Source of the DNA: Tepidamorphaceae bacterium | Lineage (GTDB): Bacteria > Pseudomonadota > Alphaproteobacteria > Rhizobiales > JAKSCL01 | Assembly: GCA_028289445.1 (NCBI GenBank) | Contig: JANQPO010000004.1 | Location: 1 to 64,000, forward strand | Direction of reading: 5' to 3' | Length of the DNA: 64,000 nt | Shown here: positions 569 to 13,134 of the stretch, one piece after another | Position numbering within the stretch: the stretch's first letter is position 1 | Layout of the letters: every line of letters starts with the position of its first letter | Notes under the pieces: generated by a model | Databases searched by the model: none | Told to the model about the DNA's origin: nothing | The model's input: the letters and a program-made list of their open reading frames with translations, nothing else | Program-made: the position numbers and the translations under genes

Positions 569-1288
569 TCAAGTTTCACCCGGGTCGTAGACGTAGCCAA
601 TCCCGCGCACTGTGCGGATAATCGACGGTTTCTCAGGATTCTTTTCGATCTTTCTGCGCAGACGGGAAATGCGGATATCGATGCTGCGGTCGAAGGGATC
701 CCAGGTCCGATCATGGGCTTGTTCGAGGATCTGATCACGGTTGAGGACACGGCCTTTGTTGTCGGCGAAAGCCTTGAGCAGGCTGAACTCCATCGCCGTC
801 AGCGGGATTTCTTCCCCGTCGTCCGACATCATCTTGGCCGCCTCCAAATCAAGCGTGTAGTCGCCAAAGCGGGCGGTTTTTGCAGCGACCTTGTCGCTCT
901 TCGCAACCGCCGCGGGGCCGTGCCTGCGTAAGACCGCCTTCACCCGCGCCTCCAACTCGCGCAAATCGACCGGCTTACCCAGATAGTCGTCGGCGCCCAT
1001 TTCGAGGCCGATGATCCGATCGATCACTTCACCTGCTGCCGTGAGCATGATGACCGGAATGGACAGGTCGGGTCGTAGCGATCGCAGGATCGCCAGACCG
1101 TCTTCTCCAGGCATGTTAATGTCCAAGATAATGAGCTCTATGTCGCCGGCTGCCAAAAGGGTTCTGAGCTCCGCGCCGTCTGCGGCGAGCGACACCTTGA
1201 AGCCGCGTTTGCCGAGATACTCCCGAACCATATCGCGCAGGTCCGGCTCGTCGTCGCAAACGAGGATATGGGATTGCCGCTCCGTCAT
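569..1288 (-). CDS. OmpR/PhoB-family response regulator
   Basis: This 239-aa protein has an N-terminal receiver domain with the acidic pair D12-D13, phosphoacceptor D56 in the motif ILDINMPG, and a Lys in the LGKPVDL loop. A C-terminal winged-helix DNA-binding domain ends in the typical signature VRGIGYVY. Its start overlaps the stop of the upstream hybrid kinase by 4 bases (ATGA), so the two are probably co-translated and form a cognate pair. Its target may be the divergent hydrolase-methyltransferase-globin-cyclase operon and its own promoter, because a 14-bp motif is repeated in front of both. That last link is inference. Confidence 0.93.
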   Translation of the reverse strand: MTERQSHILVCDDEPDLRDMVREYLGKRGFKVSLAADGAELRTLLAAGDIELIILDINMPGEDGLAILRSLRPDLSIPVIMLTAAGEVIDRIIGLEMGADDYLGKPVDLRELEARVKAVLRRHGPAAVAKSDKVAAKTARFGDYTLDLEAAKMMSDDGEEIPLTAMEFSLLKAFADNKGRVLNRDQILEQAHDRTWDPFDRSIDIRISRLRRKIEKNPEKPSIIRTVRGIGYVYDPGET

Positions 1289-3522
1289 CCCTTCACGTCT
1301 TCCAGATTGCTCAAAATGCCGTGGATCAATCGTCGCAGATCATCCGGCACGACGGGCTTCTCAAGATAGGGCCTCTGCGAGTCCTGCAATAGCGCCTGGG
1401 AGGCTTTTCCCATTGTATCGCCGGTAACGAAGCCGGTGCGTGGAACCATGTCGGGGAAGTCCTTTTGCAGAGCATCGAGAAGGCCCCGTCCATCGACGTC
1501 CGGCATGTTCAGATCGCTCAGCAGCACATCGTAGTCACCGGTCTCCAGCCGACTGATGGCCTGCGCACCCGAATTGGCGATCTCGACCGTGAAGCCGTCC
1601 TTGGCCAGAACTTCACCGATGAAGGCCGCCACGTCCTCTTCGTCATCGACGACCAGCACGCTAAGCGCGGAGACTGCGTCAACACCTTCGGAGAACTCCG
1701 CATCGCTTTTCGCAACGCTCTCGGCGACCGGCAAGGCGATGCAAAACCGACTGCCCCGATCATGACTTTGATCGAGCCAGATGCGCCCTTTGTGGGAATG
1801 AATGATGCGATGGCAAAAGGCCAGCCCGATGCCCGTGCCGTCGCCGACCTTCTTCGTCGTGAAGAACGGCTCAAAGATACGCGCCCGAATGGCCTCAGGG
1901 ATCCCGGGCCCATTGTCGGCGACGACGATCTTGAATGCGCCTTCCGCCGCATCGAAGCCGGTCGAGACCTCTATCCGATCTCCGACGCCGGACTCGCTGA
2001 TGGACTGCCCAGCATTGATGACAAGGTTGATGATGACTTGCGTTAGCTGATCGGCGTCGGCCAGGACATCGGGGCCACTCTCATCGATCGAAGAGACGAT
2101 CTCGATCCCGTCATGCTGGCCACCGAAGCCGGCGACATCGACGGCCGTCGCGACGATAGACGCGATGTCGACCCGTTCCATCCTTGTCGGCTGTTGCCGC
2201 GCCATGGCGAGGAAGGTCTTGACGATCTTGGCGCAGCGCTCGGCAGCACTGCCGATCTTTTCGATCCGCCGGAGCGTCTCCGGATCGCCGGATTCCTCGC
2301 GTAGCATCAAGGAATGTCCAACGACGATGGACAGCGGATTGTTCAATTCATGAGCGACACCCGCAAGCAGTTCGCCCAGCGCTGACATCTTCTCGTTCTG
2401 AAAGAGCATCTCACGCTGGCTGGCGAGCTCTTCCTGGAGCGCCAGTTCCTCGGTGAGATCGCGCGTGTTGGAGACGATGACGTCCTCGCCCCTGAACTCG
2501 ATCAGATTTGATGAGACCGCACCCCAAAATGCTTCGCCCTTCGCATTCCTTAGCCGCGCCCTGCGGTTTACGACCGCTCCCTTCGATCGAAGCTCCTTGA
2601 GATAAGTCTCCCGTTCCTCATCGTCGGCGTAATAGGTCTTGGCGTTCTCGACCGCGCCGAACAGCGCTGTCGTCTGTGGGCTTCTGAAGAGCAGCGCTCC
2701 GGTTTCCGCGTTGGTCATTTGCACCGGAACCGGACAAGCTTCCAAAACTTGCCGGATCAAGGCCTCGGCTTCGGTCTGCTTGGTCAGATCGACTGTGGTC
2801 GCGACGGCCACATCCTCACCCTTATACTCCGCAAGCCGCCCATAAACCGCAGCTGGAAAGCGCTTGCCTTCCGCGTTGATCAGCGTCAGCTTGAACTCGT
2901 CGACGCGCCCATCGGCCAAAAGTGTCGTGATGTAGTCGGCGCGATCGGCTGGATCGACATAATACTCGTTGTCGTTCTTGACCTTGCCGAACAATTCCAT
3001 GGCTGCGGGCGAACGATAGATGATCTCGCCGCTGCCGACACGCGCCATGACCACGGCCGCCGGGCTCGCTTCCAAGACTTGCCGCACAAGAAGATCGCCA
3101 TCACGTTCAAGCGCTTCGGCTTGTTTCTTTTCGGTGATGTCGGTGCGCGTGACGACGAAGCCGCCAAGCTTAGTGGGATGGACGGACACCAAATAAGTGG
3201 TCCCGTCGGTATGACTCAGCTCATAGTCCTGGATGTACTCGACGCCATTCTCAAGGCGTTCCGCGATCCACGCCTCCTCCCGACCGATCGCATCAGCGTA
3301 GACGCCGCGCCGGGCAGTCTCTCGCATCAGGATTTCCCAATCCAGGCCCGGCTCCAGGATATCGGACACGGCCCGGTTCATCCGCCGGTAGCTTTCGTTG
3401 CACATGACCAGCCGGCGATCGTCGTCATAAAGAGCGAAGCCCTCGCTCAACGATTCGATTGCGTCTTGGAGAAGGTCGCGGGCCCTGCGGATATCGTGGC
3501 CGACTTCACCGTCCTTGATCAT
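1285..3522 (-). CDS. PAS-domain hybrid sensor histidine kinase
   Basis: The 745-aa protein has about three PAS modules (roughly residues 15-130, 145-250 and 255-360) and no predicted membrane segment, so it is likely a cytoplasmic sensor. HisKA follows with phosphoacceptor H391 in [10 protein letters not shown], then HATPase_c with the N box (NLVINAGQS) and G boxes ([15 protein letters not shown]), and a C-terminal receiver with a DLNMPD phosphoacceptor near residue 670. The PAS ligand cannot be deduced: the flavin-type LOV signature is absent and no heme ligand is evident. It overlaps the response regulator and is transcribed divergently from the globin/cyclase operon. Confidence 0.93.
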
Positions 3523-3539: not shown

Positions 3540-3553
3540 CCGACGTTTCAGTC
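3540..3553 (-). promoter_or_regulatory. Candidate operator, left copy of 14-bp inverted motif
   Basis: Read on the minus strand this is GACTGAAACGTCGG, ending 17 bases before the kinase start codon. An identical copy lies on the plus strand at 3714-3727 in front of the divergent hydrolase gene, so each gene has the motif in the same orientation relative to transcription. The core CTGAAAC also recurs at 3631-3637 and 3683-3689. It could be the binding site of the adjacent OmpR-family regulator or a shared promoter element. The repeat is seen directly; the function is inferred. Confidence 0.45.
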
Positions 3554-3657
3554 GGTTATCAGACGCAGCCTGAATTGTTTCAATTGTAACACCCGAACGC
3601 GTGAGGTCATCGGTCGACGCGAACAACCGGCTGAAACCCATAAGAAAAATTCGTCTG

Positions 3658-3673
3658 TGTGACCTCGCTCACA
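3658..3673. promoter_or_regulatory. Perfect CRP/cAMP-receptor-type palindrome
   Basis: TGTGACCTCGCTCACA matches the full CRP consensus TGTGA-N6-TCACA with no mismatch. It lies about 100 bases upstream of the hydrolase start and 135 bases from the kinase start, in the divergent promoter region. The plus-strand operon ends with a class III nucleotide cyclase gene, so a cAMP-CRP feedback loop is plausible. Ten fixed bases would be expected by chance about once per megabase. Confidence 0.6.
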
Positions 3674-3713
3674 AAAATACATCTGAAACATCATTCCACA
3701 GTCTCGGACAAAA

Positions 3714-3727
3714 GACTGAAACGTCGG
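3714..3727 (+). promoter_or_regulatory. Candidate operator, right copy of 14-bp inverted motif
   Basis: GACTGAAACGTCGG occurs on the plus strand, ending 43 bases before the hydrolase start codon. It is an exact inverted copy of the element at 3540-3553. A further CTGAAAC core lies 33 bases upstream (3683), about three helical turns away, as expected for tandem binding by an OmpR-family dimer. Function is inferred. Confidence 0.45.
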
Positions 3728-3770
3728 CCACCCACATTCCCGTCATCGAACACGAGACGAGACAGGTCCG

Positions 3771-4607
3771 ATGACCCAGGATTACTTCGAAACGGGAACA
3801 CACGACGCGCCGGTTGTCGCGCTTCACTCTTCCGCGTCCAATGGCGCGCAGTGGAAGGCACTGGTCGCCGACCTGCGGGACCGCCACACCGTCCAGGCCT
3901 ATGATTTGCCGGGCTACAACGCTCAGGTGTCGCGAGATCGCGCGATCGACGGCATGGCGGCCGTCGCCCAACCGATCATCGACCAGATCCTGACCCTGGA
4001 CTACCCGGTTCATTTGGTCGGGCATTCATTCGGCGGCGGCGTTGCCATCAAGATCGCCTTGATGCGGCCGGATCTGGTCAGGAGCCTGACTTTGTTCGAG
4101 CCGGCAGCGTTTCACGTTCTAGAGAACCATCCCAATGACGAGCGGTCACTCCTCGACGACCTTAGGAATATCAACGCGTCACTGAAGGCACAGACTGGAA
4201 ACGATAGCGACGCCGCTGGCATGAAGGCCTTCATCGATTTCTGGAATGGCGAGAATACCTGGGATCGGATGGCGGATAACATCCGCGCGGTACTCGCCGG
4301 CGTCGCGGAAACGGTGATCGCCGACTTCGGCAACGTCTTCTCCGAGAACTGGGCGCTCAATGACCTCGCACGGCTGACCATGCCCGCGTTAATGCTGATG
4401 GGCATGGACTCGCCGATGGTGGCGCAACGGACCGCCACGCTCGTCCACCAGCACATTCCTGGCTGTGAACTGGCCATTCTGCCCGGTCTCGGCCACATGG
4501 CGCCGATCGATGCTCCGGAATGGGTGAACCCGCGCATCAAGCAGCATATCGCCCGCGTTGAGCGGCAACCCGCTCAGTTTAGCTGGCCGGAGAAACTGGC
4601 GGCCTAG
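3771..4607 (+). CDS. Alpha/beta-fold hydrolase
   Basis: This 278-aa protein has the alpha/beta-hydrolase layout. The nucleophile elbow is GHSFGG (Ser near residue 85), an acidic residue sits in MGMDSP, and the catalytic His is in GLGHMAP near the C-terminus. It is a typical soluble esterase/hydrolase of unknown substrate. It is the first gene of an apparent four-gene operon with a methyltransferase, a truncated haemoglobin and a nucleotide cyclase, and lies downstream of the CRP-type site. The closeness to signalling genes suggests a role in making or clearing a small hydrophobic ligand, which is speculation. BchO (20279-21145) is a relative of the same fold but not a duplicate. Confidence 0.85.
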   Translation: MTQDYFETGTHDAPVVALHSSASNGAQWKALVADLRDRHTVQAYDLPGYNAQVSRDRAIDGMAAVAQPIIDQILTLDYPVHLVGHSFGGGVAIKIALMRPDLVRSLTLFEPAAFHVLENHPNDERSLLDDLRNINASLKAQTGNDSDAAGMKAFIDFWNGENTWDRMADNIRAVLAGVAETVIADFGNVFSENWALNDLARLTMPALMLMGMDSPMVAQRTATLVHQHIPGCELAILPGLGHMAPIDAPEWVNPRIKQHIARVERQPAQFSWPEKLAA

Positions 4608-4640
4608 AGCCGCCAGTCACGGCATTGGAAAGGAGCCCTC

Positions 4641-5543
4641 ATGAGCCAACAGATCGCCCCCAACCCGCTGCGCCTGCTCGCAGCACAGACACAGACTGTC
4701 AAACCCAAGGAGACTAAGATGACTGCGATGACTCAAACCGCGCCGGACTACACGGCCATCAAAACCAAACAGAATGCCGCTTGGTCGTCAGGCGACTACG
4801 CCAAGATCGGCGTTACGCTGCAGATTACCGGTGAAGAGTTGGCCGAGGCTACCGATCCGACGCCCGGCGCCAGCGTCCTGGACGTCGCCGGTGGCAACGG
4901 CAACGCCACCCTGGCTTTTGCAAGGCGTTGGTGCAACGTCACCTCAACCGACTATGTCGAAAGTTTGCTCGACGGCGGCCGTGTGCGCGCCGAGGCGGAA
5001 GCGCTCAATGTCTCGTTTCAAAAGGCGGACGCCGAAGCCCTGCCTTTCGAGGACGCCAGTTTCGATATCGTCACGTCGACGTTCGGTGTGATGTTCGCGC
5101 CGAACCAGAACAAGGCGGCATCGGAGCTCACGCGGGTCTGTCGATCAGGCGGCAAAATAGCCATGGCCAACTGGACACCGGAGAGCTTTATCGGTGCTCT
5201 GTTCAAGACCCTGGGCCGGCACGTGCCCCCGCCCGCTGGCGTGCAATCGCCGGCCAATTGGGGCGCGACATCGTGGGTCCAGGAGCATTTTTCGGCCGAA
5301 GCCGCGTCGATCTCGATGAAGATGCGGAACTTCAATTTCCGCTATCCGTCACCACGGCATTTCGTCGACTTCTTCCGGACCTACTACGGACCGGTACACA
5401 AAGCCTTCCTCGCACTGGATGCTGCGGGCCAGGCACAGTTGGAAGCCGACATTCTCGCGACGATCGATCGTTTCAACGTTGCGACCGATGGCACAATGAT
5501 CGTGCCATCCGAATACGCTCAGATCGTTATCGAGAAGCGCTAG
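4641..5543 (+). CDS. Class I SAM-dependent methyltransferase
   Basis: The protein has a UbiE/Methyltransf_11-type fold. Motif I is VLDVAGGNGNATL, an acidic residue follows in the TSTDYVE strand, and a post-motif ADAEALPFED region is typical of this family. Two in-frame ATGs each have a good Shine-Dalgarno: 4641 (AAGGAG, 300 aa) and 4719 (AAGGAG, 274 aa). The extra N-terminal stretch is low in structure, so the shorter form may be the real one. The substrate is unknown. It lies 33 bases after the hydrolase and precedes the globin gene. Confidence 0.87.
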   Translation: MSQQIAPNPLRLLAAQTQTVKPKETKMTAMTQTAPDYTAIKTKQNAAWSSGDYAKIGVTLQITGEELAEATDPTPGASVLDVAGGNGNATLAFARRWCNVTSTDYVESLLDGGRVRAEAEALNVSFQKADAEALPFEDASFDIVTSTFGVMFAPNQNKAASELTRVCRSGGKIAMANWTPESFIGALFKTLGRHVPPPAGVQSPANWGATSWVQEHFSAEAASISMKMRNFNFRYPSPRHFVDFFRTYYGPVHKAFLALDAAGQAQLEADILATIDRFNVATDGTMIVPSEYAQIVIEKR

Positions 5544-5678
5544 ACCAAACCCCAGCCGCGTCGACCGATTGTCCGATAATCAGCGATGGGCCGGCGCGGC
5601 CTTCCACAAGTTTCGAAATTGGGCGAAGATGCGCCCGCGCGATGCTTGGAGGGAGGCGTCACGCAAGGGGAGAAAGCC

Positions 5679-6053
5679 ATGTCAGAAAGAACGCTTTTTG
5701 AGAAATACGGCGGTTTCTCGCAGATCAGCAAAGTCGTGCTGTCCTTCTACGACACATTGCTCGACAGCGATGAGATCGGCCCATTCTTTGATGATGTCGA
5801 CATGGCCAAAATGGTGGATCACCAGACCAAGTTTATCGCCTCGCTCCTGGGCGGGCCGGCGTCATACACCGATCAGCAGCTTCAGCGCCTGCATGCCCAC
5901 CTGAACATCAACGATTCCCATTTCGATGAGCTAAAGGTCGTTCTGAAGGGGACGCTTTCCGATCATGGTATCGAAGCCGGTGATGTCGACGCTGTTTTGC
6001 AGGAGTTCGAAAATCGGCGTGACATGATCGTAGGGAAACCCCATGTCGATTGA
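5679..6053 (+). CDS. Truncated haemoglobin, group I-like
   Basis: This 124-aa protein has the 2-on-2 globin pattern. It starts with LFEKYGG, has Tyr24 at the B10 position (SFYDTLL), an FFDDVDM segment, and the proximal F8 His at H72 (HAHLNI) with the expected downstream Ile. Such globins bind O2, NO or CO. The ATG at 5679 was chosen because it has a strong ribosome binding site (AAGGGGAG) and gives the family length; the longer frame from 5586 adds unrelated residues. The stop overlaps the start of the cyclase gene by 11 bases, so the two are translationally coupled. It may therefore act as the heme gas sensor for the cyclase rather than only as a dioxygenase. Confidence 0.92.
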   Translation: MSERTLFEKYGGFSQISKVVLSFYDTLLDSDEIGPFFDDVDMAKMVDHQTKFIASLLGGPASYTDQQLQRLHAHLNINDSHFDELKVVLKGTLSDHGIEAGDVDAVLQEFENRRDMIVGKPHVD

Positions 6054-7098
6054 AGCCATCAATGAACAGCTCCTGCGCGCCATCGGTGTCGGCGTCGCCC
6101 TGTTGGATCGGTCGAATCTACGTTTTCACTTCCAAAACGACACGTTTAAGGACTGGTTTGGGGACAGTGTCGAAGCTGCGTCGCTATCGGATGTGTTTGC
6201 CGACCTCGATCTTGTCGAGCTTGAGGCCGGCCTTTCCGACAGCGGCCGTTTCACGGCGGAGATCAAACATAAGAAAAAGAGGCGAATGCTGGTCATCGCC
6301 GTCGATTTCACGGCTGCCAGCGACAACGATCAGGATTTCGTCGTTCTCGTCTGCCAGAACATCACGCGCATTCGCGAATTGGAGTCGATGATCGATTCCT
6401 ATTCGATGATGGTCGAGCGCAACACGCGGGAGATCAAACGCGAGAAGGAGCAGGTCGAAAAACTGCTTCTCAACATCATGCCGCGTGCCGTCTACGAGGA
6501 ATTCAAGACGTTTGGTGTCGTCACGCCGCAGCTTTATGATCCCATCTCGGTTCTAATGCTGGATTTCGTCGGTTTCACCGATATGGTCGCGTCGTCGGAT
6601 CCGAGCGTCACCGTGACCGAGTTGAACGACATCTACAGCGCCTTCGATCGCATCGGCGAGCAGTTCGGATGCGAGCGCATCAAAACCATTGGCGACGCCT
6701 ATATCACGGTCGCGGGGCTTCCTGATCCGACGCCAGATCACGCCAAGGCCGTCGCCAACACGGCGATCCGGTTCGTTCGCTATCTGGAACGGCGCAACAC
6801 CAGCCATCCCAACCAGTGGCGCTGTCGTATAGGTCTGGCAACAGGTGCGGTTGTCGGTTCCGTCGTCGGAATCCAAAAATATGTCTACGACATCTTTGGA
6901 CCGGCGGTGAATTTGGCGACCCGGCTCCAGGACTTCGCCGAACCCATGCAGATTTGCGTTCAAGATGAGGTCGCCAAAGTGCTGCGCGATCAGTTCGACA
7001 TCGAAAATTTGGGCGCTCAGGACATTCGCGGATTTGAGAACCAGGATGTCTGGCGGCTTCTGGATAGCAAGAAAGATATGGCGACCGGCCAGACTTAA
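6043..7098 (+). CDS. PAS-type class III adenylate/guanylate cyclase
   Basis: The 351-aa protein has an N-terminal PAS-like domain (about residues 5-115), a coiled-coil signalling helix (REIKREKEQVEKLLLNIMP) and a class III cyclase catalytic domain (about 160-340). The metal-binding aspartates are in LDFVGFTDM and GDAY, and the transition-state Asn/Arg pair is in AVNLATRLQ. Substrate choice between ATP and GTP cannot be settled by eye; the CRP-type site upstream favours cAMP. No membrane segment is seen. It is the last gene of the hydrolase-methyltransferase-globin-cyclase operon and overlaps the globin gene. The arrangement recalls heme-associated guanylate cyclases, but here the heme protein is a separate globin. 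Confidence 0.93.
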   Translation: MSIEAINEQLLRAIGVGVALLDRSNLRFHFQNDTFKDWFGDSVEAASLSDVFADLDLVELEAGLSDSGRFTAEIKHKKKRRMLVIAVDFTAASDNDQDFVVLVCQNITRIRELESMIDSYSMMVERNTREIKREKEQVEKLLLNIMPRAVYEEFKTFGVVTPQLYDPISVLMLDFVGFTDMVASSDPSVTVTELNDIYSAFDRIGEQFGCERIKTIGDAYITVAGLPDPTPDHAKAVANTAIRFVRYLERRNTSHPNQWRCRIGLATGAVVGSVVGIQKYVYDIFGPAVNLATRLQDFAEPMQICVQDEVAKVLRDQFDIENLGAQDIRGFENQDVWRLLDSKKDMATGQT

Positions 7099-7376: not shown

Positions 7377-7793
7377 CTATCCGTCTCGTCCGGGTTCGCT
7401 CGGATCATTAGAAAATAGGGCGATCTTGTTGCCTTGAGGATCGCGAAGATAAGCAACATAAAATCGGGGGCCATACGCTTGACGGAAGCCTGGCTGGCCT
7501 TCGTCAGTGCCGCCTGCAACAATCGCGGCAGAGTGTAGGTCACGAACCTGTTTTTGGCTGCGGGCTTTCAGTGCGATCATGGAACCATTTCCGGCCGAGG
7601 CCGGACGTCCATCAAAGGGCGATCTTATATAGAGTTCCGGCATAGCATCAGACTGACCCGATTGTTCGGATAGCACGCAGCTTATGCCTTCAGGGCCTTC
7701 TGTCAGTTCATACCCAAGGGCTGGCAGGAACGCAGAGTAAAACCGTTTCGCGCGCGCGATGTCATCAGCCCCGACGGTGAGGTAGGAAATCAT
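7377..7793 (-). CDS. VOC-family (glyoxalase/bleomycin-resistance fold) protein
   Basis: This 138-aa protein starts with MISYLTVGADDIARAKRFY, the usual opening of single-domain VOC proteins, and ends with the family pattern RDPQGNKIALF. It probably contains two beta-alpha-beta-beta-beta modules that bind a metal. The ATG at 7793 is preceded by AAAGGAAC, a good ribosome binding site; the longer frame to 8024 is not supported. The substrate is unknown. It is flanked by gene-free stretches (7099-7376 and 7794-8035) in which I see nothing recognisable. Confidence 0.88.
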   Translation of the reverse strand: MISYLTVGADDIARAKRFYSAFLPALGYELTEGPEGISCVLSEQSGQSDAMPELYIRSPFDGRPASAGNGSMIALKARSQKQVRDLHSAAIVAGGTDEGQPGFRQAYGPRFYVAYLRDPQGNKIALFSNDPSEPGRDG

Positions 7794-8035
7794 GCTTCGT
7801 GTTCCTTTCAGAAAGCCCAATTGTTGCAAGAGATTAGTGCAGTTTGGAAGGCCGACAGACATTTCGGTGCGATATGAAACTACATATGACCGAGTCCAAA
7901 AGCAGACATCTGTCCAGCCTCCGCAAATGGCCGCTTTGTCCGCAGAGCAGCCGTTCGAACTCGGATCGACTGGACCTGACACGGGATTGTGACAGTCATT
8001 CGCGGCGATCAAAGCAACCTGCATCTACCGTTCCC

Positions 8036-8545: not shown

Positions 8546-9952
8546 TTACTCTGCCTCATCCTCGCCATTCAGCAGCCCAAAGCGCCGCATTTTGTTATAC
8601 AAGCTCTGGCGGCTCAAACCCAGAACACTGGCAGTCCGGGCGCGATTGTCACCGGTCAAATGCAAAGCCGCTTCGATGCAATTACGCTCAATCACATCGC
8701 GGCTGTCGCGCACCAGCGTCTTAAGCGGCACTTTGCCAACACGCGAGATGAATTGCTCAGCGGATTGCGACAAGGGTGGCGACGGAAACGCGTCAGCGAC
8801 CCGCAACGACGCGTTACGGAAGACAACGCCGAAACCCGTCATAGAATCGCTCGGCATGACGACGACGGAAAGTTCGACCTGTTCCACCTGCCCGGTCGCG
8901 CTGCGCATCGATGCTGAAACGAAACTTAGACGCTCATGGCGTCGCGCATTGTCCAGAACTAGACTCAAGCTGAATTCTGGTTGATCCAAAAAATCGGCAA
9001 GCGAACGCCCGGTCACCTGATCGACATCGCCATATTGCGAAAGATCCAAAAAGGACTCATTGGCCCACACAATGATTCCGGCCTCATCGGTGAGAACGAT
9101 CCCCTCGCTTGCCAGATGAAACAGATCGATCAGATCCGCCTCCTCCGATGCTTCGAGATTTCGACCGAAATCAGGAGCAATAGAGATGAGATAGACCCTC
9201 TCCTCCTGAGACTTTCTCACAACGACCACTAGTTCGCAGTGCTGGCCGCTACCCGCTAGCTCGACCACTTGGCGGACCGGATCACCGGTGGCGGACGCCT
9301 GAGACAACATATTGGAGACCGTTGCTCGATCGGATTTCGCGAACAGCGTCGACAGGTTACGACCGATCAACTCGGCGACACCGCAGTTAAGCAACTCCGC
9401 GCTCTTTAGGTTGGCTTCCTGTATGTTTAGTGTGGCGCCGTCGACAATCAGGAACGGTTCAGACGCGATCTCGAACAGCATGCGATAGCGTGCCTCAGCC
9501 TGCCGATGACGCATGTGGTTCGCTTCGAGCGATTGTTGCGCCATTAGCAAGCGTGCCTGCAGCCCTGTCGTCGGCGTTAAATCGCGTCCAATAAGAAGAA
9601 CGCTTTTACCCGCACCGGCGGAATGCGCTGTGTACCGAACAAGCACACGGTCGCCCGTTGTCGCCGGATGATAAATTTCCCACGCAGCGACAGTTGGGTC
9701 CGATCGGGCTGACGACAACAGATCCTTTATGGCCGACCGGGACTCCGCGTCGACTACAGCATCCACGCGCTTGCCCCGCCAATCCTCGACATTTAATCCC
9801 GAAAGGAGGCCAGAAGCGCAGGCTGAGTCTTGCACGACGTCGTTTTCGTCGACGATGAGAGCGACATCGGATGTCGATGCAATTAGCGAGGCCGCCGTTC
9901 CAGCATCAAAGTCACTGAACACAGAGCCCAACTGAGAGAAGTGAAGCGTCAT
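8546..9952 (-). CDS. ppsR: PpsR/CrtJ-family transcriptional regulator, copy 1
   Basis: This 468-aa protein has the PpsR/CrtJ layout: an N-terminal PAS-like domain, a Q-linker near residues 130-160, two more PAS domains, and a Fis-type HTH (ASVLGLSRQSLYNKMRRFGL) at the C-terminus. It binds TGT-N12-ACA and represses photosynthesis genes. Cysteines include one in the HTH (ERNCIEAAL), matching the redox-active HTH cysteine described for CrtJ, plus others in ACAS, LLNCG and QHCEL. The ATG at 9952 gives the family N-terminus. It lies back to back with the heme oxygenase/bacteriophytochrome operon, as ppsR and bphP do in Bradyrhizobium and Rhodopseudomonas. A second, cysteine-free paralogue lies at 54804-56249. 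Confidence 0.93.
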   Translation of the reverse strand: MTLHFSQLGSVFSDFDAGTAASLIASTSDVALIVDENDVVQDSACASGLLSGLNVEDWRGKRVDAVVDAESRSAIKDLLSSARSDPTVAAWEIYHPATTGDRVLVRYTAHSAGAGKSVLLIGRDLTPTTGLQARLLMAQQSLEANHMRHRQAEARYRMLFEIASEPFLIVDGATLNIQEANLKSAELLNCGVAELIGRNLSTLFAKSDRATVSNMLSQASATGDPVRQVVELAGSGQHCELVVVVRKSQEERVYLISIAPDFGRNLEASEEADLIDLFHLASEGIVLTDEAGIIVWANESFLDLSQYGDVDQVTGRSLADFLDQPEFSLSLVLDNARRHERLSFVSASMRSATGQVEQVELSVVVMPSDSMTGFGVVFRNASLRVADAFPSPPLSQSAEQFISRVGKVPLKTLVRDSRDVIERNCIEAALHLTGDNRARTASVLGLSRQSLYNKMRRFGLLNGEDEAE

Positions 9953-10162
9953 GATCTGCCTGCCGACCTGCGTTTGTCGGAAGCGTCCTCTATAGGGTGG
10001 AACGCACCAACATTCAAATTGCACGGCAAAGCCAAAGTCGAAAGGCGGCTCGGCGATAGGATATCGAGTCGCGTGCGGACCGCCGGGATGCGACCGGACG
10101 CGCCGTTGCAACCGCGTTGGCTCAGCCGATACACTGACTTAACGATATGCGAGGGCTCATCG

Positions 10163-10837
10163 TTGGATTTGGACAGGCAGAGACACAAAGCACGACGGCA
10201 AGTTGCATCAGATAACGATGCTCGCTCAGCGCATGACATCTTGCGCGCCGAGACGGCGGCCATCCACAAACGCCTCCATGCCGATGCGACCTTTAGCGCG
10301 CTCTTGGACGGACGATTGAGCCGCAAGGATTATGAGTCGCTGATGTGCGGCATGTACGGATTCTACCGACCTCTTGATGAGATGATCTGCTCGGCGGAGA
10401 GAGATCTGATCTCGATACCACGAACCGTGACCTACCAACCGCGCGGCCCGATGTTGGCCAACGACCTTTCGGCCCTCGGCGTCGATGCTGACCTATTGGC
10501 GTCCATCCTGACATGCCAAGACCTGCCAGACATTACGTCACCTGCCGATCTCACGGGTGTGCTCTATGTCGTCGATGGTGCAACGCGTGGTGGCGTTTTG
10601 CTTAACAACTGCGTGTCGCGACTTTTGGGAAGCCAGAGCACGGCCGGACGTACATATTGGGACTGGTGCCGTCAAAGTGGTGGCGCGCATTGGCGCTCAA
10701 CGCGTCAATTGATCAATCACTTCGGCCGCGACAAAGCTGCGATCGAGCAAATGACTTTAGTGGCCAATCAAACGTTCAGTGCGTTTGAGAACTGGCTCGC
10801 CGCGGTGATCGAGCCCGACGAAGCAGCGATGGTTTGA
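10163..10837 (+). CDS. bphO: Biliverdin-producing heme oxygenase
   Basis: The protein resembles bacterial heme oxygenases (BphO/HmuO type). The proximal His is in ETAAIHKRLH, followed by DYESLMCGMYGFYRPLD, and a glycine-containing distal region lies around VVDGATRGGVLLNN. It opens heme to biliverdin, the chromophore of the bacteriophytochrome encoded next. The TTG start at 10163 is preferred (GAGGG seven bases upstream, 224 aa, usual length); ATG 10088 and a start at 9941 would give extensions overlapping the ppsR promoter. It ends in a TTGA overlap with bphP. Confidence 0.9.
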   Translation: MDLDRQRHKARRQVASDNDARSAHDILRAETAAIHKRLHADATFSALLDGRLSRKDYESLMCGMYGFYRPLDEMICSAERDLISIPRTVTYQPRGPMLANDLSALGVDADLLASILTCQDLPDITSPADLTGVLYVVDGATRGGVLLNNCVSRLLGSQSTAGRTYWDWCRQSGGAHWRSTRQLINHFGRDKAAIEQMTLVANQTFSAFENWLAAVIEPDEAAMV

Positions 10838-13134
10838 AGTCAGTGCGAAATCGGTTCGACGACTGCGACACTGAACCCATCAACCTTATCGGCTCAATTC
10901 AGCCGCATGGCTGCCTTGTGGCCATCGCTGAGGATAGTCAAAAGATATCCTTCGCAAGCGAAAACACGGCCGATTATATCGGGTTTGGGCACGATGATCT
11001 GATCGGTCGCAACATCGAAGAGATCATTGGGGCGCAGAATTATGGCGAGCTTCGTCAACTGCCGCTCGAACCCTTGTCTCCCGATCTTCTTCGGCCCTGG
11101 TTCATCAACTTCGACTGCGGGGACCACTCGACAAGATCGCTTGAGTGTCTGCCTCATCGAATAGGCAAACATCTAATCCTCGAATTCGTGCGGCGGGACG
11201 ACGAGCCAACATCGGTCTGGCAAGAGGAGATGCTCAGACAGCAGATCATCTCCGACCTGATCAAGCCCAATGTGTTGGAGGAACTCGCGCAGGTTAGCGC
11301 GGACATCATTCGCACCGTAACCGGTTTTGATCGTGTCATGATCTACCGCTTCGCCGAAGATAAGCATGGCGAGGTCATCGCTGAAAGCACGGTGCGTGAT
11401 GACAGTTTCCTCGGACTACACTATCCGGCATCCGACATTCCGGATCCGGCACGCCGGCACTTTACCCTTAATGTCATGCGATCAATCCCGGACATAAATG
11501 CCCGCCCAGTGCCGATACAAGGCGCGAACGGTCTCGTGCCGGATGCGGAATCGGCCACCCCGCTCGACCTCACCTACTGCAAGCTGCGCGGCGTGGCGCC
11601 AGTTCACGTCGAATATCTCAATAATATGGGTGTTGGGGCCAGTCTGTCGATTTCGCTGATCACAAATCAGGAATTATGGGGTTTGATTGCCTGCCACCAT
11701 TATGACGTTCGCCATGTCCCGTGGTCTCGCCTGCGTTTCGTTGAGCTGCTTGGCGGCACAATTTCAGCCCTGCTTCAAAGTATCGAGAACACGAACCAAC
11801 TGCGGCAAAGCATCAATGCGGAAAAGATCGCCTTCACCATTGAGCAGACAGCGCGCAAGGATGGCAGTCTAAGCGCGGTTGTCGCCGACCATGCCGAAAC
11901 GTTGATGGATCTACTCCATGCCCAGGGCCTGGTGTTGAAACTCAGCGGCAAAGTGACCGAGTTCGGCGTGGTCCCTAAACCGTCATTTGACTTTGCTCCA
12001 TTGCGCAAGACCGCGATCGAAGGCATCGCCACATCGTCTCATCTTTCAAGCATTATCGACATGATCGACAGTCAGCAGGCGGTTGCCGCCGGCGCTGCAT
12101 TTCTGGAACTTTCTGAAGATGGCGATGACTTCCTCGTTTTCCTGCGCGAGCACTTCGAGGAAACGATCAAGTGGGCAGGCAAACCTGAGAAGATCGAGCA
12201 GACATCGCAGGATGGTGCCGTCAGACTCTCACCGCGTGGTTCGTTCGCTCTTTGGCGCGAAGAGCGACTCGGCAAAAGCAAGCCGTTCGACACGTTGGAT
12301 CACGAGGCGCTACGGATCATCCGAAGAGCGCTGTTCGCGCTGAACAGCCTAGCGCGCGAGCGTGAAGCTGTTGCCGTACAGAAGGAAGCCGAATCCGAGA
12401 AAGCTCGCCTGCGACACGCGCTCTTGGATGCAGCGCGTACACATTCGATGGGCGAACTGGCATCGGCGCTGGCGCATGAATTGAACCAGCCGCTTGCAGC
12501 CGTGTCCAACTACATCAACGCCTGTCGCCAGGAACTGCGAAACGATGGCATCGTGTTGCCAGATCACGCGGCCGAACTCATAGAGGAAGCCGTTGCCGAG
12601 TCGGCGCGGGCTGGCGAACTTGTTCGTCGGCTGCGAAACTTCATTGCCCGTGGGGACCTGGTTGCCGACTACATCGATCTCAACGAGACAATCCAGCACG
12701 GCATCGATCTCGCGCGCGACGCAAATGCCGCAACGGACTTCGAGCTACAACTGCAGCTGGAGGACGACTTGCCGAAAATCTGGGCCGACCCTGTCCAGAT
12801 TGCTCAAGTCGTCCTGAACTTGGCGAAAAACAGCATAACCGCCATGGAAGGTATGCCAGACCGACGCTTGATGGTCGCGACGCGTTTGCAAAACGACTTC
12901 ATCGAAATTCTTGTCCGCGATACCGGGCGCGGCATCTCCCCAGAGATCGCGGATACCATGTTTGATCCCTTCCACACATCGACAACAAGCGGAATGGGGA
13001 TCGGATTGTCCTTGTGCCGCTCCATTGTCGAGGCCCATCGAGGACGCATCGAAGCGCGACAGGTAAGTCCGGGCGCGGAACTGACCTTCACGCTGCCGGT
13101 TGGCGAAGTATGGGATGGACCGGCGAATGAGTGA
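10834..13134 (+). CDS. bphP: Bacteriophytochrome histidine kinase
   Basis: This 766-aa photosensor has the PAS-GAF-PHY core. The biliverdin-attachment Cys is C11, near the N-terminus before the PAS domain. The GAF domain contains the PASDIP motif near residue 200, and the PHY-domain tongue has PRGSF near residue 467. A HisKA domain with H548 in ALAHELNQPL and an HATPase (DTGRGIS, GMGIGLSLC) follow. The kinase part is FixL-like. Translation starts at TTG 10834, overlapping the bphO stop, so the pigment enzyme and apoprotein are coupled. It should switch between red and far-red forms and phosphorylate the FixJ-like regulator encoded next. Confidence 0.95.
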   Translation: MKSVRNRFDDCDTEPINLIGSIQPHGCLVAIAEDSQKISFASENTADYIGFGHDDLIGRNIEEIIGAQNYGELRQLPLEPLSPDLLRPWFINFDCGDHSTRSLECLPHRIGKHLILEFVRRDDEPTSVWQEEMLRQQIISDLIKPNVLEELAQVSADIIRTVTGFDRVMIYRFAEDKHGEVIAESTVRDDSFLGLHYPASDIPDPARRHFTLNVMRSIPDINARPVPIQGANGLVPDAESATPLDLTYCKLRGVAPVHVEYLNNMGVGASLSISLITNQELWGLIACHHYDVRHVPWSRLRFVELLGGTISALLQSIENTNQLRQSINAEKIAFTIEQTARKDGSLSAVVADHAETLMDLLHAQGLVLKLSGKVTEFGVVPKPSFDFAPLRKTAIEGIATSSHLSSIIDMIDSQQAVAAGAAFLELSEDGDDFLVFLREHFEETIKWAGKPEKIEQTSQDGAVRLSPRGSFALWREERLGKSKPFDTLDHEALRIIRRALFALNSLAREREAVAVQKEAESEKARLRHALLDAARTHSMGELASALAHELNQPLAAVSNYINACRQELRNDGIVLPDHAAELIEEAVAESARAGELVRRLRNFIARGDLVADYIDLNETIQHGIDLARDANAATDFELQLQLEDDLPKIWADPVQIAQVVLNLAKNSITAMEGMPDRRLMVATRLQNDFIEILVRDTGRGISPEIADTMFDPFHTSTTSGMGIGLSLCRSIVEAHRGRIEARQVSPGAELTFTLPVGEVWDGPANE

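Follow-up and report, generated by a model that had tools for sequence, protein, structure and literature searches.

We analysed 64,000 nucleotides of a Tepidamorphaceae bacterium (contig JANQPO010000004.1, positions 1 to 64,000; hereafter the window), in which a truncated haemoglobin gene lies beside a gene for a class III nucleotide cyclase. The former encodes a group 1 truncated haemoglobin (5679..6053, + strand; PF01152, 58.1 bits) and the latter a protein composed of PAS domain, coiled coil and class III cyclase (6043..7098, + strand; PF00211, 148.6 bits). The two open reading frames (ORFs) lie in different frames and overlap by 11 bp (6043-6053). Upstream on the same strand are an alpha/beta hydrolase (3771..4607; PF12697/PF00561) and a class I S-adenosylmethionine (SAM) methyltransferase (4641..5543; PF08241) whose start codon is uncertain. 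Divergently, on the - strand, a PAS hybrid histidine kinase (1285..3522; domain profiles for PAS_7, a further PAS, HisKA, HATPase and receiver) and an OmpR-type response regulator with receiver and winged helix (569..1288; PF00072/PF00486) are encoded by ORFs sharing 4 bp. The best NCBIfam score of the regulator is to OmpR, under the cut-off of that family. The six genes and the 11-bp overlap had been described in an earlier note made from the sequence, with which gene calls and domain profiles agree.

Conservation of the globin-cyclase pair

GTDB genomes were scanned with an alignment of the globin, using globin similarity as the only criterion, which gave 80 named loci from Alphaproteobacteria and three Granulosicoccaceae (gammaproteobacteria). 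The cyclase gene was immediately downstream of the globin gene in 79 of these, and the 80th stops at a contig edge. A globin search of 297 genomes of the same order found a globin at 45-59% identity in twelve genomes besides the own one, and weaker truncated haemoglobin matches as well. Eleven of the twelve adjoin a cyclase orthologue (full-length or truncated by the contig) and the twelfth is at a contig end, whereas globins at 44% identity or less have no cyclase neighbour. Other group 1 truncated haemoglobins in the same genomes are unpaired; the window globin is the sole truncated haemoglobin of its own genome. The reverse search used the PAS-helix part of the cyclase as query against a total of about 680 genomes. 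It recovered the cyclase in 13/297 same-order and 17/385 same-class genomes (the own genome being counted in both), and all 29 cyclases adjoin the globin, one of them on a broken contig. None of the genomes in these cyclase-first searches had a cyclase of this subfamily on its own, and in 398 genomes drawn across the phylum the cyclase was found in Alphaproteobacteria only.

The gap between the two genes is -11 to +23 nt in every pair. No globin-cyclase fusion was seen, the ORFs being separate in all 79 pairs. It is thus shown that the two genes are obligate partners, almost overlapping, in many alphaproteobacterial families, and chance adjacency is refuted by the globin-first and cyclase-first neighbourhood searches. 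Conservation outside close strains had been set beforehand as a test of the locus, and the gene order is kept across dozens of genera. As the genes are obligately coded side by side in many marine bacteria, their products are probably a two-piece gas or redox sensor. The rest of the locus is more variable. The OmpR-type regulator adjoins the pair in 52/80 loci and relatives of the kinase are near it in most of the 80, while the hydrolase (37/80) and methyltransferase (30/80) mark one flavour of locus only; the earlier note had suggested that these two may make or clear a ligand.

A few records stand apart. An Oceanobacillus-titled record (L125) carries an alphaproteobacterial-type module and is probably mislabelled or contaminated. 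In another (L149, G223:C241) a globin fragment containing an in-frame TGA comes after the cyclase, and another globin of that genome is at a contig end, a possible duplication. In the PAS-helix part of two distant cyclase matches (L194, L198) one in-frame TAA each was reported, which may reflect decay or assembly error.

The globin pocket and the cyclase architecture

The closest solved relatives of the globin (top PDB matches) are all group 1. Its pocket residues are B10 Tyr24, E10 His48, E11 Gln49 and F8 His72. Invariant in 92/92 paired globins are Tyr24, Asp47, His48, Gln49, Thr50, Phe52 and His72, together with the glycine motifs Gly11-Gly12 and Gly58-Gly59. Asp47, His48 and Lys51 vary little or not at all among paired globins, but are not fixed in unpaired ones. 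His48 aligns with a His of Synechocystis cyanoglobin (1s69), where the E10 His is the sixth ligand. An E10 His has also been flagged for possible hexacoordination (PMC4720485). The paired globin probably binds haem, with a probable resting state ligated by E10 His and F8 His.

Synechocystis GlbN and Mycobacterium tuberculosis HbN share with the window globin the sequence family, B10 Tyr, E11 Gln and F8 His, and GlbN also shares the E10 His. The window globin differs from both in its obligate cyclase partner, its fixed DHQTKF motif and a context that would be signalling rather than enzymatic. Roseobacter denitrificans RD1_4240, a characterised protein from a roseobacter, is also a truncated haemoglobin and has an oxidative-stress context. 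However, it is a group II protein with Trp G8 (PMC4319818) and so belongs to another family than the paired group 1 globin. One locus (L118, 10051-10545) encodes a second, single-domain 3/3 globin (flavohaemoglobin-like); in most of the 9 loci with such a globin it comes after the regulator.

In an AF2 (AlphaFold2) model of the cyclase (pLDDT 84.5), a PAS domain (residues 3-106) and a long helix (108-145) precede the class III catalytic domain. The best Foldseek matches of this model are the chains of human soluble guanylate cyclase (sGC), with an E value of 2.7e-19 for sGC beta. VIA-align, which covers only chains ranked by Foldseek and is therefore no independent search, matched sGC beta 205-609 to cyclase residues 1-346 and sGC alpha 274-660 to residues 2-342; the rmsd is large, as the relative placement of the domains differs. 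The aligned sGC segment comprises everything after the H-NOX domain. The cyclase itself begins at the PAS domain, and no protein of the locus matches the HNOB profile; the match of the cyclase to Pfam HNOBA is weak (21.0 bits, under the cut-off of 23.4). Since its predicted fold is closest to that of sGC minus the haem-binding H-NOX, the globin probably supplies the haem in trans.

The window cyclase has the full adenylyl-type set of catalytic residues, namely Asp174 and Asp218 (metal), Lys214/Asp283 (adenine pair) and Asn290/Arg294 (transition state), whose meaning is taken from established class III cyclase work. Lys214/Asp283 stand in place of the guanylyl-type specificity residues Glu/Cys, and K214, N290 and R294 are 100% conserved in 32 intact cyclases. 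These residues predict ATP cyclase activity, so that the output would be cyclic AMP (cAMP).

The divergent control region

The kinase-hydrolase intergenic region was aligned across 22 loci and contains four conserved elements built on GTTTCA/TGAAAC, which we call RR-type boxes. On the kinase side (- strand) these are GTTTCA-N4-GTTATC (3545..3560), a block conserved in the 22 aligned regions, and TGTTTCAATTGTAACA (3576..3591), for which alignment and repeat counts give the family consensus GAAACAATTGAAAC with a 9-bp period. On the operon side (+ strand) they are AATAC-N4-GAAAC (3676..3689), whose GAAAC half is invariant in the alignment, and the operon-proximal conserved block GACAA...CTGAAAC (3707..3722). 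GAAAC-N4-GAAAC occurs 113 times exactly in the 955 kb of the 80 loci, compared with 1-10 occurrences at other spacings and 0-23 for permuted halves. In both gene arrangements it precedes the globin-cyclase pair, the kinase gene and further genes of the cluster. The repeats, which are absent from the earlier note, flank both divergent promoters. Direct repeats of about 10 bp lie near the OmpR-type regulator's own operon and are conserved across species, and we infer that the linked regulator is their natural reader. The conserved GAAAC repeat would be an immediate handle on the targets of this regulator. A regulon search of the own genome with the repeat was dropped, having given no usable enrichment (179 matches against 131 for the control).

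Between the two pairs of boxes lies the CRP-like palindrome TGTGA-N6-TCACA, TGTGACCTCGCTCACA (3658..3673, no strand assigned), an exact match, as the earlier note had stated for the shared upstream region. Even with one mismatch allowed, for which 1.2 would be expected, it is the sole match in the 64-kb window. In the window, one Rhizobiaceae metagenome-assembled genome and 11 Ruegeria-group loci, such a box lies exactly 10 nt before the proximal TGAAAC; of the 12 boxes in relatives, 10 are exact and 2 have one mismatch. This constant spacing in 12 related loci marks the box as non-random. In one CRP/FNR protein of the own genome (L034, helix ARENANRIL) an R-E-x-x-x-R recognition helix can be read by eye, so a CRP homologue, the absence of which would have counted against the circuit, is present. 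The cAMP feedback through CRP envisaged earlier is therefore plausible where the box is found at fixed spacing (13 loci), and is restricted to some lineages.

Loss of catalytic residues and the proposed sensor

Catalytic residues were compared in a sample of 61 cyclases with mapped neighbourhoods. Asn290 and/or Arg294 are lost in 28 of these, many of which also have Lys214 changed to Arg; cyclases of this kind did not figure in the earlier note. All 28 are near a histidine kinase and response regulator (HK/RR), amounting to 28 of the 47 cyclases in such neighbourhoods, whereas none of the 14 without HK/RR is affected. A tree of the cyclases needs at least 4 changes to explain the loss. The association is strong in raw counts and weak once ancestry is considered. 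Intact and degenerate cyclases are 45-85% identical. In the main affected clade conservation is higher than in the intact set for the PAS domain (0.64 vs 0.55) and helix (0.95 vs 0.88), and lower for the two catalytic halves (0.69 vs 0.82 and 0.53 vs 0.66). The predicted fold persists in an AF2 model of a relative without the catalytic residues, and the globin pocket is untouched in lineages with a degenerate cyclase. In 23 loci of the catalysis-lost type the next gene after the cyclase is that of the kinase, at a distance of -4 to +10 nt. The loss of Asn/Arg while globin pocket, PAS domain and helix stay constrained suggests that catalysis became dispensable once the pair signals to the kinase, the output having moved from cAMP to a phosphorelay. 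The window itself combines an intact cyclase with HK/RR, hydrolase and methyltransferase.

The catalysis-lost loci have genes for OsmC, flavoprotein, CysK-glutaredoxin and related proteins clustered close by. A tree-controlled test of catalytic loss with thiol genes was consistent in direction and not significant, with 4-5 independent pairs. In the own genome OsmC had no match and the CysK relatives were of the ordinary kind, none being fused to glutaredoxin, and a thiol reading was therefore rejected for the window. The fusion itself (PALP + Glutaredoxin; L118 10729-12222, L103 7536-9083) is of unusual architecture and its relatives adjoin the module in 25/80 loci. A similar set of genes is annotated on a plasmid of Novosphingobium, and on Novosphingobium plasmid pLA3 the module (L208, 758-3151) is beside an arsenic-resistance operon.

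Taken together, these data point, with a probability of about two in three, to globin and cyclase being two halves of a split, sGC-like gas or redox sensor, under HK/RR and CRP control as set out here. The globin would bind haem and dock on the PAS domain and coiled coil of the cyclase, and ligand binding or a redox change would move the coiled coil and so switch cAMP synthesis. Both transcription units would be under the divergent PAS kinase and OmpR-type regulator, acting at the conserved GAAAC repeats, and in the window lineage a CRP-type protein at the 3658-3673 box would add cAMP feedback. In lineages with the same kinase and regulator, where the catalytic residues are lost, the pair probably signals to the kinase by contact. 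Candidate ligands are O2, NO, CO and sulfide, or the redox state may be sensed. That the globin acts with the cyclase in trans had already been proposed in the earlier note, and the idea gains strength from the two-way pairing, the near-overlap, the sGC-like architecture without a haem domain and the invariant pocket. The wider generalisation is more tentative and falls a little short of even odds: that a group 1 truncated haemoglobin replaces H-NOX in trans in a two-protein haem-gated cyclase and that, beside HK/RR, this cyclase several times became a non-catalytic relay with a cyclase fold.

Several points weigh against the split sensor. Obligate pairing could stem from shared regulation alone. 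The AF2 model is of the cyclase alone, with a pTM of 0.56 and weak relative domain placement, and we infer complex formation, haem binding, gas response and cAMP output alike. The relation of catalytic loss to neighbouring genes comes down to few independent events, for which sign tests are not significant. TGTGA-N6-TCACA is not clearly enriched in the own 3.95-Mb genome (3 exact matches vs 1 for the reversed control), so that the motif by itself proves little, and the box is missing in most relatives. Elsewhere in the own genome RR-type boxes are near background (179 vs 131 for the control, both strands, up to one mismatch).

The globin could instead be a detoxifying enzyme, an NO dioxygenase or peroxidase, that is co-expressed and lowers the ligand concentration for an independent PAS cyclase with no physical signalling between them. 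NO dioxygenases are found among the group 1 truncated haemoglobins, M. tuberculosis HbN for example, B10 Tyr and E11 Gln are compatible with oxygen chemistry, and many relatives have thiol/oxidative genes (OsmC, CysK-glutaredoxin) close by. However, a scavenger would need no strict two-way pairing with one cyclase subfamily; other group 1 globins of the same genomes go unpaired, and only the paired ones have Asp47, His48 and Lys51 fixed or nearly so, which makes this explanation unlikely. A little less likely again is that the phosphorelay is the conserved output everywhere, the window included. Globin and cyclase fold would then assist the hybrid kinase as its sensory co-protein, and cAMP would be incidental. 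Transition-state residues are missing from 28/47 cyclases near HK/RR, in which globin, PAS and helix are still conserved, the globin-cyclase-kinase-regulator operon is tightly spaced, and there is precedent in stand-alone H-NOX proteins acting on adjacent kinases and in HnoD with its inactive diguanylate cyclase (DGC) domain (PMC8738867). Against this, no catalytic residue is missing in the window or in any pair without HK/RR, which argues that catalysis is under selection there. A chance neighbourhood of ordinary genes with a fortuitous CRP-like palindrome is scarcely credible: exact palindromes do occur 3 times in 3.95 Mb, but the gene order is conserved across dozens of genera and the box is in fixed register.

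The proposed split sensor would work most like a divided sGC, or like a stand-alone H-NOX acting on an adjacent enzyme, yet it is neither, as it lacks H-NOX and has residues of adenylyl type. With sGC (H-NOX - PAS - coiled coil - cyclase) it has in common the order of the domains, PAS first, then coiled coil and class III catalytic domain, and differs in having a separate group 1 globin gene in place of the H-NOX. In bacteria, stand-alone H-NOX proteins control the kinases next to them, and the DGC domain of HnoD is inactive (PMC8738867). These systems, with an adjacent histidine kinase or DGC/phosphodiesterase, resemble the locus in coding a free haem sensor beside a signalling enzyme and in their kinase/regulator neighbours, and HnoD is a precedent for an inactive cyclase-type domain; here the haem protein is a truncated globin and the partner a PAS class III cyclase. 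Globin-coupled sensors and HemAC-type globin cyclases also have a globin governing a signalling output domain, and HemAC-Lm is referred to as a globin controlling adenylate cyclase (cited in PMC12755159). However, the known ones are single-chain fusions, whereas here a 2/2 group 1 globin is coded separately, and because the chains are separate the pair is not a globin-coupled sensor. No description of the globin-cyclase pair was found in the literature searched, subscription journals being outside that search. If the split sensor is real, truncated haemoglobins, usually seen as scavengers or enzymes, would gain a dedicated signalling role with an obligate partner, and the sGC design of haem subunit, PAS, coiled coil and cyclase would exist also in split form with a globin as the haem subunit. 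Moreover, the lineages without catalytic residues make the transition from second-messenger enzyme to signalling scaffold directly testable.

Downstream of the pair (8549-13134) the window encodes PpsR (TIGR02040, over cut-off), a haem oxygenase and a bacteriophytochrome histidine kinase. The link to a light region drawn in the earlier note was not supported, as PpsR, haem oxygenase and phytochrome genes are beside 0/80 relatives and this photosynthesis-regulation region has no counterpart beside the module in them. Above cut-off, the own genome has 16 domains of the class III cyclase type, set against a single truncated haemoglobin and eight cyclic nucleotide (cNMP)-binding proteins. Lastly, a 215-aa ORF at 7377-8024 (- strand) is of glyoxalase type by eye, with no Pfam match.

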